Assembly: GCA_944320555.1 (NCBI GenBank)
Contig: CALUHX010000003.1
Span: 1 to 64,000 of the forward strand
DNA from: an uncultured Butyricimonas sp.
GTDB lineage: Bacteria; Bacteroidota; Bacteroidia; Bacteroidales; Marinifilaceae
Reading direction: 5' to 3'
DNA length: 64,000 bases
The notes beneath the pieces were generated by a model. The model was not told the origin of the DNA, made no database searches, and was given only the letters and a program-made list of their open reading frames with translations. The translations under genes were made by a program, and so were the position numbers. Shown here in pieces: positions 1 through 4,551 of this stretch (its first letter is position 1; each line of letters begins with the position of its first letter).

Positions 1-46
1 TTTAGTCGCTTTCATTCCATTAGAAAAGCTGCACCAGCGGACTTAA

Positions 47-373
47 CAGATTTTAGTACATTTATCACCACACAGAGTTTTTGAATGTTTGAATTATTTC
101 AATAATAGCGAATTGCAATTATTCATCTGTGATAATTATATACATCTCAAAAATTACACAAAAGCTTTACAGCATTCAAAAATAGCTTCCGCTATGGTCC
201 CTGCAAGATTTTATCCCTTATATTATCAATTTATAATAGCACAAGAAATGCAAGACACATCGCAATCTATTAGAATTGCCAAGCAGATACTTGATAAGCA
301 TGAGAAAGTTAATAACGTTTCAATTAAAATGTTGAAAATACAAATGAGGCGTTATGTACAGAGTATTGAATAA
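47..373 (+). pseudogene. C-terminal TPR fragment of an O-antigen polymerase/ligase-like protein
   Basis: The open frame after the TAA at 44-46 encodes a helical repeat sequence ending in a stop at 371-373. The stretch ASAMVPARFYPLY and the following helix match what I know of the tetratricopeptide tail of Bacteroidetes Wzy/WaaL-like membrane proteins, which polymerise or ligate O-antigen at the inner membrane. No transmembrane part is present: upstream sequence belongs to the window edge or is broken by the in-frame stop, and the other frame runs to a TGA at 82-84. No good start codon is visible (first candidate is TTG at 89). Most likely a decayed or frameshifted remnant; the left edge of the window prevents a firm decision. 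Confidence 0.45.
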
Positions 374-423
374 CAATTAAGCATTAATCTGTTTGACTAT
401 TTTTTTCTATTGTGTTAATAAGT

Positions 424-457
424 AAAAGAGAATAGTGTTGAAACTCTTTTTTTACCT
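424..457 (+). terminator. Possible weak terminator after the TPR fragment
   Basis: AAAAGAG (424-430) can pair with CTCTTTT (444-450), and more T follows. The stem is short and AT-rich, so this is tentative. Confidence 0.25.
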
Positions 458-589
458 TCTTCGCTTTTCAGAAAGATTCTTTTGACTCGAGTAAAAAGTA
501 ATGTTTTGTGTAGACAACTAATTTGTCTTTTATGTCATGAAAGAAAAGGAGATAGCTATCTGAGGAGTAAAAATGAGTAAGAAAATTTG

Positions 590-627
590 TTTTGATATAG
601 TTCTCTCTTTTTTAATTCATATCAAAA
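590..627. repeat. 9-bp inverted repeat before the RteC-like gene
   Basis: TTTTGATAT (590-598) and ATATCAAAA (619-627) are perfect inverted arms 20 bases apart. The right arm ends 12 bases before the start codon at 640. It could be an operator or an mRNA hairpin at the start site. The rest of 374-639 is AT-rich and shows no gene. Confidence 0.4.
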
Positions 628-639
628 AATCAAATTAAC

Positions 640-1324
640 ATGAAACAACAACCACTCAGAAATTACCTGCAATTCACGCAGAACACCCTCGTGCGCGTCA
701 CGGGGCGCAATCCCCTCGCCTTCACTGTAAACGGTTGCGAGGACATCCACCAATTCCGCCAGCGGCTGCTCGACCTCCAGTTCGATTTCGCCGCCGCCGC
801 GCGGCCCCTCCTCGACCCCGGCAGGGAAGACCCCGCCGCCCTCCGATGCCTCCGACTCCAACTGCAAGCCTTGAAACCTTTCTTCCGCTTCGACGAGGAG
901 GGCCGGCCTTCCCGACCCGCCATCGCCGTCGAGGAGAGGGGGAAAAAAGACGGCGGTCCACGCCGCTCCCCTCCGCCGGGCGCTCGCCCCCTTCGTCGCC
1001 GCCCAGTGGGAATCCGTCGCCTTCCTCCTCACCCTCCTCGGGAGGGACGACCCCGGCGACGCTTTCCCATTCCGTTACGCTGGTCCGCGCGCCGAGCTGC
1101 TCCAGTTCCTCCACGCCTTCATCCTCTGCGGCAAAATCGTCCCAACGGCCCCGCACGCTCACCCCAACGACTGCTACCGCCACCTCCTCGCCCTCTTCCA
1201 CCTCCCCGTCCCCGACAACCTCTCCGACGCCCTCGCCAAAGCCCTCTCCCGCGTCAACCCCGCCCGCCCCATCGAGTCCCTCCTCGACGACTACCGCCGC
1301 CTCCACCCCGACGCCACGCGCTGA
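640..1324 (+). pseudogene. RteC-like protein gene with a +1 frameshift
   Basis: The first frame (640 to about 940) starts MKQQPLRNYLQFT and reads like a normal protein, then turns into Pro/Arg nonsense. Frame 2 from about 944 to the TGA at 1322-1324 is clearly protein-like (VAAQWESVAFLLTLLGRDD, ELLQFLHAFILCGK, SLLDDYRRL). Removing one base in the G5A6 run at 938-948 joins both parts into about 227 residues. The C-terminal half, with an ELLQFLHAFILCGKI segment and a helical tail, resembles the C-terminal domain of RteC-type regulators of Bacteroides conjugative elements; that assignment is tentative. A single extra base in a homopolymer may be a real mutation or an assembly error. Confidence 0.5.
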
Positions 1325-1342
1325 CCCCTCACCACTCTCCAA

Positions 1343-1371
1343 CCTTGCGGACACATAAAAGGCCCGCAAGG
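1343..1371 (+). terminator. Hairpin after the RteC-like gene
   Basis: CCTTGCGG (1343-1350) and CCGCAAGG (1364-1371) form a perfect 8-bp stem 18 bases after the stop codon. There is no T-tract, so terminator function is uncertain. Confidence 0.3.
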
Positions 1372-1438
1372 CCTCTCCAATCCACGTCCGCAATCCGCGA
1401 CGCTCACAAGCCCCACAAACCCAATCCGCCGACAAACC

Positions 1439-1834
1439 TTATTCCCTGAAAAAATCCCCGATATCCCTCTGGGACAACTCCCCGCTCGCAATCACATTCC
1501 CCCTCACCCTCTCCAAATCCTCCCCCGTCAAAAAAGCCCTCACCGCACACTCCTCCCCCTCGAACACCGCCCTCCTTATCTTCAGCGGCCGCGCGCAATT
1601 GACATAAGAATCATAATTCAAAAACGAATACGTCTCATGCAGAATCGTTATCTGCCGTTTCTACAGCCGCAGCCTCCGCTGAATGAACGGGTTGACTTGG
1701 GAATTGATAAGCGCCGAACAAACAAAAACCTCGTCAGCAGAAACTCCCGCCACGATATAAAATTTATCGTGGTCCACCCCCGGCATCGGGCCATGAAGCA
1801 CGGCTCCCGCCTTAATCTCATCGCGACGGGCCAT
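1439..1834 (-). pseudogene. Small PemK/MazF-like protein gene with internal amber codon
   Basis: Reading leftwards from the ATG at 1834-1832, the frame gives 131 codons to a TAA at 1441-1439: MARRDEIKAGAVLHG, DHDKFYIVAGV, VFVCSALINSQVNPF, TILHETYSFLNYDSYVNC, SGELSQRDIGDFF. The frame is interrupted only by TAG at codon 58 (1663-1661). The layout (basic start, 'xHDKFyivaGv', a VCSALINS strand, then YSFLNYDSYV) recalls small PemK/MazF-type or related toxin-like proteins of Bacteroidetes, but I do not recognise it with certainty. No antitoxin gene is visible next to it. Either a nonsense-mutated pseudogene or a sequencing error. Confidence 0.5.
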
Positions 1835-1925
1835 AAGCGAAATTCATAAACCGGGCGGTATCCGCCACAAAACAAAACCATCCTCCCCTCCTCCCTCCGG
1901 AACCTTTTCCTTCCCCACCCCCTAT

Positions 1926-1962
1926 AAAAAGGCGAACTTCATTCGACGAGGGAATGAAGTTC
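1926..1962 (-). terminator. Terminator of the small RNA and Abi transcripts
   Basis: GAACTTCATTC and GAATGAAGTTC form a perfect 11-bp stem with a 7-base loop (1962-1934), followed in the minus-strand sense by GCC and five T (1930-1926). Confidence 0.8.
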
Positions 1963-2018
1963 TACACGGTTTTTATAGTGCAATGTGTAGCGACGAGGGC
2001 ATACACCGGCACTTTTCT
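1926..2018 (-). ncRNA. Candidate small RNA downstream of the Abi gene
   Basis: A canonical promoter (2056-2025) and a strong rho-independent terminator (1962-1926) bracket about 93 bases with no open frame of note. The RNA can fold a 5-bp hairpin GUGUA/UACAC (2006-2002 with 1989-1985) and the 11-bp terminator hairpin. The sequence CCCUCGUCG occurs twice, in the loop of the first hairpin (1999-1991) and in the apex of the terminator hairpin (1952-1944). UACAC can instead pair with the later GUGUAG (1967-1962), so two exclusive folds exist. It lies 17 bases after the Abi stop codon plus promoter, so it could also be made from the Abi message. It could be an antitoxin or guide-like partner of the HEPN protein; this is inference from position only. 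Confidence 0.5.
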
Positions 2019-2024
2019 TGTGGA

Positions 2025-2056
2025 CAAAGATACACTTAATTCTGTCTTTCTCCAAA
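2025..2056 (-). promoter_or_regulatory. Bacteroidetes-type promoter for the small RNA
   Basis: TTTG at 2056-2053, a 20-base spacer, and TATCTTTG at 2032-2025 match the -33/-7 consensus exactly. Transcription would start near 2018, just past the 3' end of the Abi gene. Confidence 0.7.
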
Positions 2057-2073
2057 TCTCTCAGAACTTTTTT

Positions 2074-2943
2074 TTATTCCCAAAACAACTTCCGCACTCC
2101 CGCAAATTTCTTTTCCGCCTCCTTGATAGCCAATTCAATATTTTCTCGCATTTCTTTTTCTCTTGTTTTAGAGACTCTCTGTAAGAAAAAAGCGACCACT
2201 TCAACAACAGACCACAAATTATAATTGTTCTCCCTCGGAACAGTAAACGCCGGCCCTTTTTTCACGCCCTTCCGCAATTTCAAGTCAAACAACACATTCC
2301 CATGAGCGCACAAATTGCGAATCACCCTTATCGTTTCCAGATAATTTTCAAAAACAACGGTCTTGTTCACTCCGAAACACCTACTAATCAACAATCTGTC
2401 ATCAACCGACTTCAAATTTTGGTAAAGCATGCACACCTCTCCCAGCGACATATATTCTATCGTTTTCCAAGCAGGCGCAAACTTGTCGTTGATATATTTC
2501 TTGTGATGCCGCATGATCACTTCCTTTTTAGAAATCAAGCCGTAAACATCTTTCTCAAAGCTTCTGACATAATCCTCTTTCATCACATTCCTGTCGACAA
2601 ACCACGTGGGGGATTCCTTATACCGATTGGATATGTGGTAAATAATCGTCGTCCGCAAAGCGATTTCTATCCGAGTGAGATAACGGATTAAAATGTGTCG
2701 CAAATCGAAATCCAAATAATACAAGGCCACCGCGTCACCAAACCGTGTTCCCGCCTTGTAGCGATGCTTCCGATTGTGCAGATTGGGATACCCTATCTCA
2801 AAAGGGAACAAGTAGAACCCCAACCGGTAATATCCGATGTCCAACAGGATTTCCTTTGCTTTCTCCTCGTCGTCAATAATCACGCCCCGTTCCCTTAATT
2901 TGGCGATTTGCTCGACCACCGATGTCGCTGTCTTGATTTCCAT
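2074..2943 (-). CDS. Abi_2 (AbiD/AbiF-type) HEPN protein
   Basis: A 289-residue protein of the Abi_2 family, known from lactococcal abortive-infection proteins AbiD/AbiF. Family members carry a HEPN-type RNase centre; here R209 and H214 in RNLCAH fit the RxxxxH motif, and R97/H103 (RTTIIYH) may be a second one. No signal peptide or membrane segment is seen. The ATG at 2943-2941 (MEIKTATSVV) is chosen because a consensus promoter sits at 3002-2972, which excludes the upstream ATG at 3012. Expected role: cytosolic RNA cleavage that arrests growth on phage infection, or the toxin of a toxin-antitoxin pair. A small RNA with its own promoter follows immediately. Neighbours on the left are broken genes, consistent with a defence island. 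Confidence 0.8.
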   Translation of the reverse strand: MEIKTATSVVEQIAKLRERGVIIDDEEKAKEILLDIGYYRLGFYLFPFEIGYPNLHNRKHRYKAGTRFGDAVALYYLDFDLRHILIRYLTRIEIALRTTIIYHISNRYKESPTWFVDRNVMKEDYVRSFEKDVYGLISKKEVIMRHHKKYINDKFAPAWKTIEYMSLGEVCMLYQNLKSVDDRLLISRCFGVNKTVVFENYLETIRVIRNLCAHGNVLFDLKLRKGVKKGPAFTVPRENNYNLWSVVEVVAFFLQRVSKTREKEMRENIELAIKEAEKKFAGVRKLFWE

Positions 2944-2971
2944 TTTAATCCATTCATCAAATTGCGTTTTG

Positions 2972-3002
2972 CAAATATAAGCAAAAAATCCCTTCAAGCA
3001 AA
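2972..3002 (-). promoter_or_regulatory. Promoter of the Abi gene
   Basis: TTTG (3002-2999), a 19-base spacer and TATATTTG (2979-2972) match the Bacteroidetes consensus. The start codon at 2943 lies about 22 bases after the predicted start site. Confidence 0.7.
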
Positions 3003-3364
3003 CGGCAGCCAAGCAAAAGGCGGCGCATGGAAAAAAGCGCGGGGTGTGTTTACTCCAAAGCGGTGCGCCCGTGCGTTCCGCTCACTCCCAAGAAGCTTTC
3101 TCCGCGAAAGGAGGACCACTGAGGCGGAACGGCCTCCCCGACGACGGAAGGACAAGCAAGAATCTCGGAGAAAATTCCCGTTCCGAAACAGGCAATACCC
3201 TATCGCACAACAAGAAACACTCAAAAGGCACCCTACCCCTTTTTATTGTCACGAAAGGTTAAACAATCTTTCACCGTCCCCGCAAAACGGGCGGAGCGCA
3301 AGGCGCGAAGGCTTTCCCAAGGCCGCCGCAAGGGGGGTATGCCAAAAATCCCGAACCGCCGCCT

Positions 3365-3372
3365 TACCTTTG
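3365..3372 (+). promoter_or_regulatory. -7 promoter box for the DUF6266-like gene
   Basis: TACCTTTG matches TAnnTTTG. No TTTG is found at the expected -33 distance, so confidence is limited. Confidence 0.35.
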
Positions 3373-3482
3373 GAACATCAACAAGAAACAAAACATGGAA
3401 CAACACACAAACTCGAACATCATGGAGACAAACACTCGCCGCGTCCGCGCCAGACCTCCGCCGTGGTTCCGCCAGACATCCC

Positions 3483-3537
3483 GGGCATTTGCGGGGCATT
3501 TGCCGAGAATCACCGGAGTTTCCCGACTCGGGAAAAA
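3483..3537. repeat. Degenerate 11-bp tandem repeats
   Basis: Consecutive 11-base units GGGCATTTGCG, GGGCATTTGCC, GAGAATCACCG, GAGTTTCCCGA, CTCGGGAAAAA; the first two differ at one base. The block GGGGCATTTG...GAGTTTC recurs on the minus strand near 39.1 kb with one extra 11-base unit between the two anchors. Confidence 0.5.
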
Positions 3538-3649
3538 CACCCCGAAGCCTCCGGAAAAACTCCGGAAACCCGGCCCATCCCCGACGAGGACACGGGGAAA
3601 AAGAGCACGAGACACCATAAAAATCAAATTCACAAAAAACACAAAAACC

Positions 3650-4315
3650 ATGAACAGAAAAACAAGACATCTCACTGTGGAGACCTTACCCAGAAGAGCG
3701 GGAGACTACATCATCTACAACCGGCTGGGCACCCCCTGCCTCCGCCGCCTGCCCAAGAATTTCCACCCGGAAAGCCACTTCACGGAGGCGCACCGCGTCA
3801 ACCAAGACCGCATCCGCTATCTCGTGTCGCTTTACCAGGCGCTGGAGGGGACAAAGGCAAGGGAATCCTGGCGCGACGCGCCGAAGCAAGCGGGACAGAC
3901 GGGCTACAACGCCTTCGTCAGCCGCAACTACGCCGCCTTCAACGCGAAAGAGGCCGTGGCCGACCACGCCCGGCTGACGCTGAGCGACGGAAGGCTGCGC
4001 CATCCGCTCGGCCTCGGGGCCAGAGTCCGCGGCGAGCGGGAAATCGCGTTCGAATGGGAGACGCAGGACGACCAGCTGCTGGGAGCCCAAAGCGACCGCC
4101 CGCGGGTCATCCTCATGCCGGACGACGGCTCCTACGGCATCATCGCCCGGGAGTCGCTCGAGGCCAAACGGAAAGACGGGCGGGTCGTCGTGACGCTATC
4201 CCCGGAGGAGGGCCGCCCCCCGTTCGCCTACCTCTACTGGGAGTCGCGGGACGGACGGCGCTTCTCCCCCACGCAATTCCTACTCATAGCATGGGACGGA
4301 GGAGGGGAACCGTAA
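3650..4315 (+). CDS. DUF6266-like hypothetical protein
   Basis: A 221-residue protein starting MNRKTRHLTVETL. The N-terminal half has the pattern DYIIYNRLGTPCLRRLPK, ...WRDAPKQAGQTGYNAFVSRNY, and the C-terminal half has alternating beta-like segments (LTLSDGRLRHPLG, FEWETQDDQLLGAQ, AYLYWESRDGRRFSPTQF). This recalls DUF6266 proteins, which are common in Bacteroidetes and have no established function; some resemble phage tail or surface-associated proteins. No signal peptide is seen. The ATG at 3650 follows CAAAAACC and is chosen because residues before it are low-complexity Arg/Pro sequence. The assignment is from memory of the pattern and is tentative. Confidence 0.5.
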   Translation: MNRKTRHLTVETLPRRAGDYIIYNRLGTPCLRRLPKNFHPESHFTEAHRVNQDRIRYLVSLYQALEGTKARESWRDAPKQAGQTGYNAFVSRNYAAFNAKEAVADHARLTLSDGRLRHPLGLGARVRGEREIAFEWETQDDQLLGAQSDRPRVILMPDDGSYGIIARESLEAKRKDGRVVVTLSPEEGRPPFAYLYWESRDGRRFSPTQFLLIAWDGGGEP

Positions 4316-4551
4316 ATTTCAGGCGGGGAAGCCGCCGTTCCCGAGAAAAGGGACGGTGTCGAAACGCCGTCTCCATACCCCCACCCCCTTTCGGGGCATT
4401 CCCCCCGCTTTGGGGAGGGAGTTGAACGGCGCCGCCGTCCAGGCATCCAACCACTCCCCCAAAACAAGGGAGGCGGCCGCGAAGCTGACGGAGGGGCATG
4501 ATTGGCCATTCCGACACGGCTCCTTCCCCGCAGGCGGCCGGCGACGGGAAA
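4316..4551. other. GC-rich intergenic DNA resembling a dispersed repeat
   Basis: The stretch has opposed C-rich and G-rich tracts (CCCCCTTTCGGGG..., CTTTGGGGAGGGAG, CTCCCCCAAAACAAGGGAGG) and no convincing reading frame. Its composition resembles non-coding repeats found between genes in other gut Bacteroidetes; this cannot be tested from one window. Confidence 0.3.

Follow-up and report, generated by a model that had tools for sequence, protein, structure and literature searches.

One of the closest described systems to the locus analysed here is AbiF–RCd22 of the Clostridium difficile prophage phi027. It consists of an Abi_2 HEPN protein and an adjacent structured RNA of about 100–130 nt that ends in a terminator (PMC12373285). 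RCd22 lies upstream of abiF, shares its promoter and contains two abiF motifs (Rfam family RF03085). The RNA binds AbiF and neutralises it in trans, and toxicity and most RNA binding are lost when the equivalent HEPN residues of AbiF are changed (PMC12373285). An RNA antitoxin has also been shown for PbAbiF (8VZ6; reviewed in PMC12737573), whose partner is AbiFr. Phages, in turn, can carry imitations of such RNAs. Phage PhiTE encodes pseudo-ToxI, a mimic of a type III antitoxin RNA (PMC3475682), and the Racr RNA anti-CRISPRs are solitary phage copies of a defence protein's RNA partner (PMC10651486). A lone abiF RNA has been noted in cyanophage S-CREM1 and left unexplained there (PMC9964418).

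The locus described here lies in a 64,000-nt stretch from an uncultured Butyricimonas sp., the whole of which we call the window. Like AbiF–RCd22, it pairs an Abi_2 HEPN protein with a neighbouring structured RNA that is followed by a terminator. Unlike RCd22, this RNA has one different hairpin and its own promoter, and it is mostly downstream of the gene in relatives.

The Abi_2 protein and its neighbouring RNA

The abi_2 gene runs from 2943 to 2074 on the minus strand and encodes a 289-aa HEPN protein of the AbiD/F type, a putative toxin RNase. The protein matches the Abi_2 domain PF07751 (E=2e-43, 149 bits against a cut-off of 25.6) and the PADLOC model AbiD (E=5e-53). The chain holds a single HEPN motif, RNLCAH (residues 209–214; 2302–2319, minus strand), of which the R, N and H of RNxxxH are invariant across 40 aligned proteins. 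An AlphaFold2 model (pLDDT 93.9) has only one significant fold match in the PDB, PbAbiF (8vz6_A; E 3.6e-13, TM 0.80), and the sequence search agrees (8VZ6, E=4e-25). The HEPN motif falls in the same place in both proteins, aligned with R210/H215 of PbAbiF, and both have an RNA partner, a putative one in the case of the window protein. Identity over the fold alignment is 25%, the comparison being one of proteins. The gene has its own Bacteroidetes promoter, TTTG-N19-TATATTTG (3002–2972, minus strand). AbiD and AbiF were rejected as clade labels; the PADLOC AbiD model spans both of the Abi_2 clades discussed below, so this naming cannot separate them. Two frames beside the module look broken, one at 1834–1439 (minus strand) with an in-frame TAG and one at 640–1320 (plus strand) with an apparent frameshift near 945. 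A Pfam search of these two frames gave zero matches.

Just 3′ of the abi_2 stop codon is an exact Bacteroidetes promoter, TTTG-N20-TATCTTTG (2056–2025, minus strand), matched once in the window where 0.06 matches are expected. An 11-bp terminator hairpin at 1962–1934 (minus strand) is followed by T-rich DNA, GCCUUUUUAU; the terminator pattern alone is not above chance (2 found, 1.8 expected in the stretch scanned). From promoter and terminator together, a transcript of ~93 nt is predicted (2021–1929, minus strand). It has a stop in every frame and no convincing ORF, and its predicted fold beats 200 of 200 shuffles (z=-4.0). The HEPN protein, both promoters, the terminator and the non-coding RNA had all been proposed in a preliminary description of this DNA, and each was recovered. 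The first hairpin, 2013–1977, was not described there and is the conserved part of the RNA. It lies within a domain (2016–1969, minus strand) that is matched by covariance models and shows covariation. A near-invariant outer stem, AGUGC (2013–2009) with GCACU (1981–1977), leads through an internal loop to a covarying inner stem, GUGUA(U)GC/GCUACAC, and the domain also contains the conserved tail UAUAAAA. The abi_2 gene and the RNA are each present in one copy in the 3.6-Mb genome. A 9-base repeat, CCCUCGUCG, common to both loops of the window RNA (1962–1934 and 2008–1982), was given no weight because relatives do not keep it.

The RNA may be undescribed, as had been surmised, in that it is absent from Rfam 15 and from the papers searched. 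It had no Rfam 15 match at the gathering cut-off, and the matches near the locus at E up to 10 (snoRNAs, a lncRNA) are chance. The abiF RNA family RF03085 (cut-off 37 bits) gave no match in the window at gathering, none near the locus at E≤10 and none in 20 relatives. The literature search found no description of the RNA; the paper that traces Cas13 back to AbiF lay outside its reach and may hold an earlier mention.

The window RNA and RF03085 are alike in being two-part hairpins with an internal loop that adjoin abi_2, and they share the loop piece ACAA(U)GC. RF03085-like RNAs conserve their inner stem and loop and vary in the outer stem, whereas the window RNA does the reverse. Three features set the new RNA apart from abiF RNA: which helix is fixed in sequence, a promoter of its own, and the side of the gene on which it usually lies. 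Given this different architecture and the lack of an RF03085 match, the RNA may bind in another way than AbiFr does. With it, the AbiF/AbiD systems, the proposed source of Cas13 (PMC12737573), gain a second RNA family. Since the RNA gene usually lies downstream and has a promoter to itself, the two branches allow a comparison of binding rules. The link of AbiF-type proteins to neighbouring non-coding RNAs and to the ancestry of Cas13, which the preliminary description had brought up, agrees with the published work (PMC12373285, PMC12737573).

Conservation of the RNA and its link to one Abi_2 clade

A genome scan returned 17 Abi_2 relatives of 38–62% identity, and further searches added more. 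The same RNA adjoins relatives as distant as 37–38% protein identity, which is beyond chance. All close-clade Abi_2 genes with readable flanks adjoin the RNA, and it is downstream in nearly all. Right after the stop codon, nearly all close relatives have a TANNTTTG promoter box, then AGUGC-CC-stem-loop-stem-GCACU-(A/C/U)UAAAA, then a terminator. The box stands 14–23 bp 5′ of the RNA in nearly all loci. The terminators themselves vary between relatives, and the conserved hairpin precedes them as a separate unit. Three viral lineages (L082/L083, L085 and L092) have the RNA upstream of the gene and then a terminator. Two tandem RNA units, each with promoter and terminator, stand behind one abi_2 in L046/L047.

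The outer stem is near-invariant, with 97.8% of cells pairing; its first pair is U-A in L014 and, by eye, C-G in L076/L077. The inner stem shows double changes at all five pairs. Such cells number 54, where shuffles give 23.6 +/- 3.9, and the covariation score is 0.321 against 0.128 (0/500 as good; slid controls ≤0.09), in an alignment that was fitted to the structure and with related sequences treated as independent. An alignment-free test, in which 3′ halves were swapped between loci, is not fitted in this way. Here the native inner stem has −3.86 kcal/mol against −2.40 +/- 0.29 for the swaps (1/2000 as good, 5 SD ahead), related sequences again counting as independent. RNAalifold on a MAFFT alignment gave the outer stem only, because the internal loop varies in length (2–3 nt), and the model-based and alignment-free tests were therefore used. 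Conservation beside Abi_2 homologues, with covarying stems, was one check that the preliminary description had proposed; the RNA is conserved there, and the inner stem of its first hairpin covaries.

A separate Abi_2 clade carries an abiF/RF03085-like RNA instead, usually upstream; in one member, L086, the abiF-like hairpin seems by eye to be downstream. In a tree of 41 proteins, one branch with support 100/100 divides the proteins by RNA type, window-type on one side and abiF-like upstream on the other. When viral relatives are included (55 rows), the abiF-RNA clade stays on one side of a branch, again at 100/100. Model R3, built for the abiF-like type, finds the sister-clade RNA and the RNA of C. 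difficile phage phiC2, and has no match in the window or in the close-clade loci searched.

The linkage also holds in reverse. When two overlapping draws of 395 genomes were searched with the RNA only, nearly all matches adjoined Abi_2 or, in L067, an Abi_2 remnant. The two orphans (L066:1501–1548 and L068:1501–1548) are chromosomal, and abi_2 is absent from the stretch around each. They lie near mobile-element genes, a transposase and a serine recombinase gene, and the L066 genome also holds a complete abi_2–RNA pair. A further match, in L070, lies inside a gene and is chance.

Function of the locus

We consider it probable that the locus is an AbiF-like two-gene module for toxin–antitoxin action or abortive infection that has a separate RNA family, whose RNA would bind and silence the HEPN RNase. 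The fold and sequence match to PbAbiF, the position of the motif and the C. difficile AbiF results together argue for a type III-like toxin–antitoxin module. In such a module Abi_2 would be the RNase toxin, probably as a homodimer whose interface brings the two RNxxxH motifs together. Made from its own strong promoter, the small RNA would fold into a hairpin with an outer and an inner stem, bind Abi_2 and hold the RNase off. Upon take-over of the cell by a phage, the RNA would be lost or fall short, the RNase would be freed and the infected cell would be stopped. Binding and neutralisation by the window RNA, dimerisation, and anti-phage action with a phage trigger are steps that we infer. As in type III systems, an antitoxin-like RNA gene adjoins the toxin gene. 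ToxIN-like systems have a tandem-repeat antitoxin upstream in one operon; here there is a single hairpin with its own promoter, downstream and free of repeats.

The preliminary description had offered two readings of the pair, an RNA antitoxin or an RNA-guided system. The antitoxin half is well supported and likely, on the grounds of conservation, covariation, strict linkage to one clade, side-switching and AbiF homology, and the orphan RNA copies in L066 and L068 count against it. The guided half found no support. An RNA whose guide steers the HEPN protein in the manner of Cas13 to targets would suit a downstream RNA gene, which resembles a CRISPR array in position, and Cas13 has been proposed to descend from Abi_2/AbiF proteins (PMC12737573). 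Yet there is no array and there are no CRISPR-like repeats in window positions 1–4500, a region that includes abi_2, the 289-aa chain has one HEPN motif and not two, and the RNA has no guide-like segment, its sequence outside the conserved hairpin being short and AU-rich. AbiF is moreover described as a toxin–antitoxin system without guided targeting (PMC12737573), and we regard a guided system as extremely unlikely.

The RNA could instead be no more than the transcription end of abi_2, that is a 3′ UTR with its terminator, or an attenuator acting in cis. It does follow the stop codon directly in most loci and has a terminator at its end, and the C. difficile AbiF RNA also works in cis through early termination (PMC12373285). 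We nonetheless find this unlikely. The promoter box 5′ of the RNA is kept in nearly all loci, and the conserved hairpin is separate from, and before, terminators that differ. Since the RNA is upstream in three lineages, it is not merely a 3′ UTR or leader; a leader or 3′ UTR could hardly switch sides and stay functional, whereas the change of side fits a separate RNA that acts on its neighbour's protein. Being small, promoter-driven and terminated, the RNA also resembles an sRNA, and it might be a trans-acting regulator that base-pairs with mRNAs of the host or a phage and that Abi_2 chaperones or processes. The inner-stem letters, however, are free to vary while pairing is kept, which is the opposite of an mRNA-pairing seed, and the linkage to Abi_2 is nearly exclusive; such a regulator is very unlikely.

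Copies of the RNAs in phages

A first viral scan with a single protein found nothing. A pattern scan of viral contigs gave 21 matches, against 8 chance matches with a reversed control pattern, and L125 is the sole one of the 21 with Abi_2 next door. Fourteen others score 31–47 bits with model R2 and amount to about ten distinct copies once near-identical contigs are merged. PF07751 was absent from those 14 whole contigs (possibly incomplete) in a search with L125 as positive control. A second viral scan added strong copies in L134, L140 and L143 and weaker ones in L139 and L144. The lone window-type copies on contigs without Abi_2 (L111, L112, L113, L115, L119, L120, L122–L124, L126–L130, L134, L140 and L143) are candidate anti-Abi decoys. 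Other pattern matches were set aside as chance or simple repeats (L110/L114, L116/L121, L117, L118, L133, L135–L138, L141, L142 and L145–L149), and the matches in H86, a 735-kb phage, and in H88 are chance. Phage records related to the carriers, namely FpV4 (first 50 kb), elemoF (first 50 kb) and ctfjg026 (in part), had no copy.

The lone copies stand among phage genes. The L111 copy is between the small and large terminase genes, the L122 copy is beside the major head protein gene and the L129 copy comes after an endolysin; the L112 and L120 contigs carry primase/helicase genes. The protein relatives of L122 and L120 are mostly from phages of Flavobacterium and other Bacteroidota, the host group of the system. 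The copy in L122/L126 is identical to L050's host RNA across the conserved stretch.

The abiF-like sister RNA is likewise found alone. A scan of viral contigs with its core, CGCTNCCCNTNAGAACAGCG, matched at least 120 contigs. Among 80 of the listed contigs (L163–L242), Abi_2 adjoined the RNA in one and was absent from the examined stretch in 79; L170, L176, L210 and L240 are examples of such lone RNAs. PF07751 was also absent from 48 whole contigs of 4.5–226 kb (43 with the sister RNA and five from the second window-RNA scan), with L193 as positive control. The sister-RNA phage copies checked had no Rfam match. A tRNA lies within 200 nt of the copy in 33 of the 79, often at 14–16 nt on the same strand inside a tRNA array.

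The two RNA types also occur together. In L143 and L144 a window-type copy is directly beside an abiF-like RNA (R3 E=0.015 and 0.078, the only two R3 matches over 334 kb), and the same pairing is seen by eye in L140 and L139. These clusters are intergenic (L139:5000–5650; L143 around 2867–3014, minus strand; L144:540–640; L140:2250–2352).

The simplest account of the phage copies would be that these RNAs keep Abi_2 toxins inhibited. We lean towards the view that RNA decoys against the Abi_2/AbiF defence are widespread in phages, probably those of Bacteroidota, as lone copies and as mixed arrays of both kinds of antitoxin RNA, which would flood the HEPN toxin with inhibitor. The decoys would lie between virion genes or in tRNA arrays, where they could be trimmed as the tRNAs are processed, and their excess would keep the toxin off during infection. 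A serious if more tentative alternative is that the lone copies are remnants of lost modules, phage signals for transcription or processing, or tRNA-array elements unrelated to Abi_2. Several copies, L111 and L112 among them, are indeed just 3′ of a phage gene and 5′ of a terminator, many sister-RNA copies are within tRNA arrays, and blastn against a phage collection gave no named isolate matching the lone copies. Against this, the hallmarks of the antitoxin are kept while the stems covary; of the 53 distinct sister-RNA copies, 46 have outer arms that pair over at least 6 bp (mean 10.6, maximum 18 in 1000 shuffles). A remnant would decay, but the related phages L115, L120 and L127 share an identical RNA, with flanks that are 28–84% alike. 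Both RNA types are also present in the mixed arrays.

If they are decoys, the phage copies would be the main discovery here. Antitoxin RNA mimicry would then be a common counter-defence and not the oddity of one phage, and each phage's copies would reveal the Abi_2 systems of its hosts. Pseudo-ToxI acts in ToxIN, not Abi_2, and its repeats were expanded under selection, whereas the copies here are lone or mixed and occur in many uncultivated phages. The Racr RNAs differ in that they mimic CRISPR repeats and not toxin–antitoxin RNAs.

Further hairpins accompany some of the phage copies. The mixed clusters hold several, such as AGAAAUCCCUCUCC...GGGAGAGGGUUUCU in L143. In L115, L120 and L127 a second hairpin of the type GGUAAAUAAAUA...UAUUUAUUUAC is just upstream of the RNA copy, and its arms have changed and still pair.
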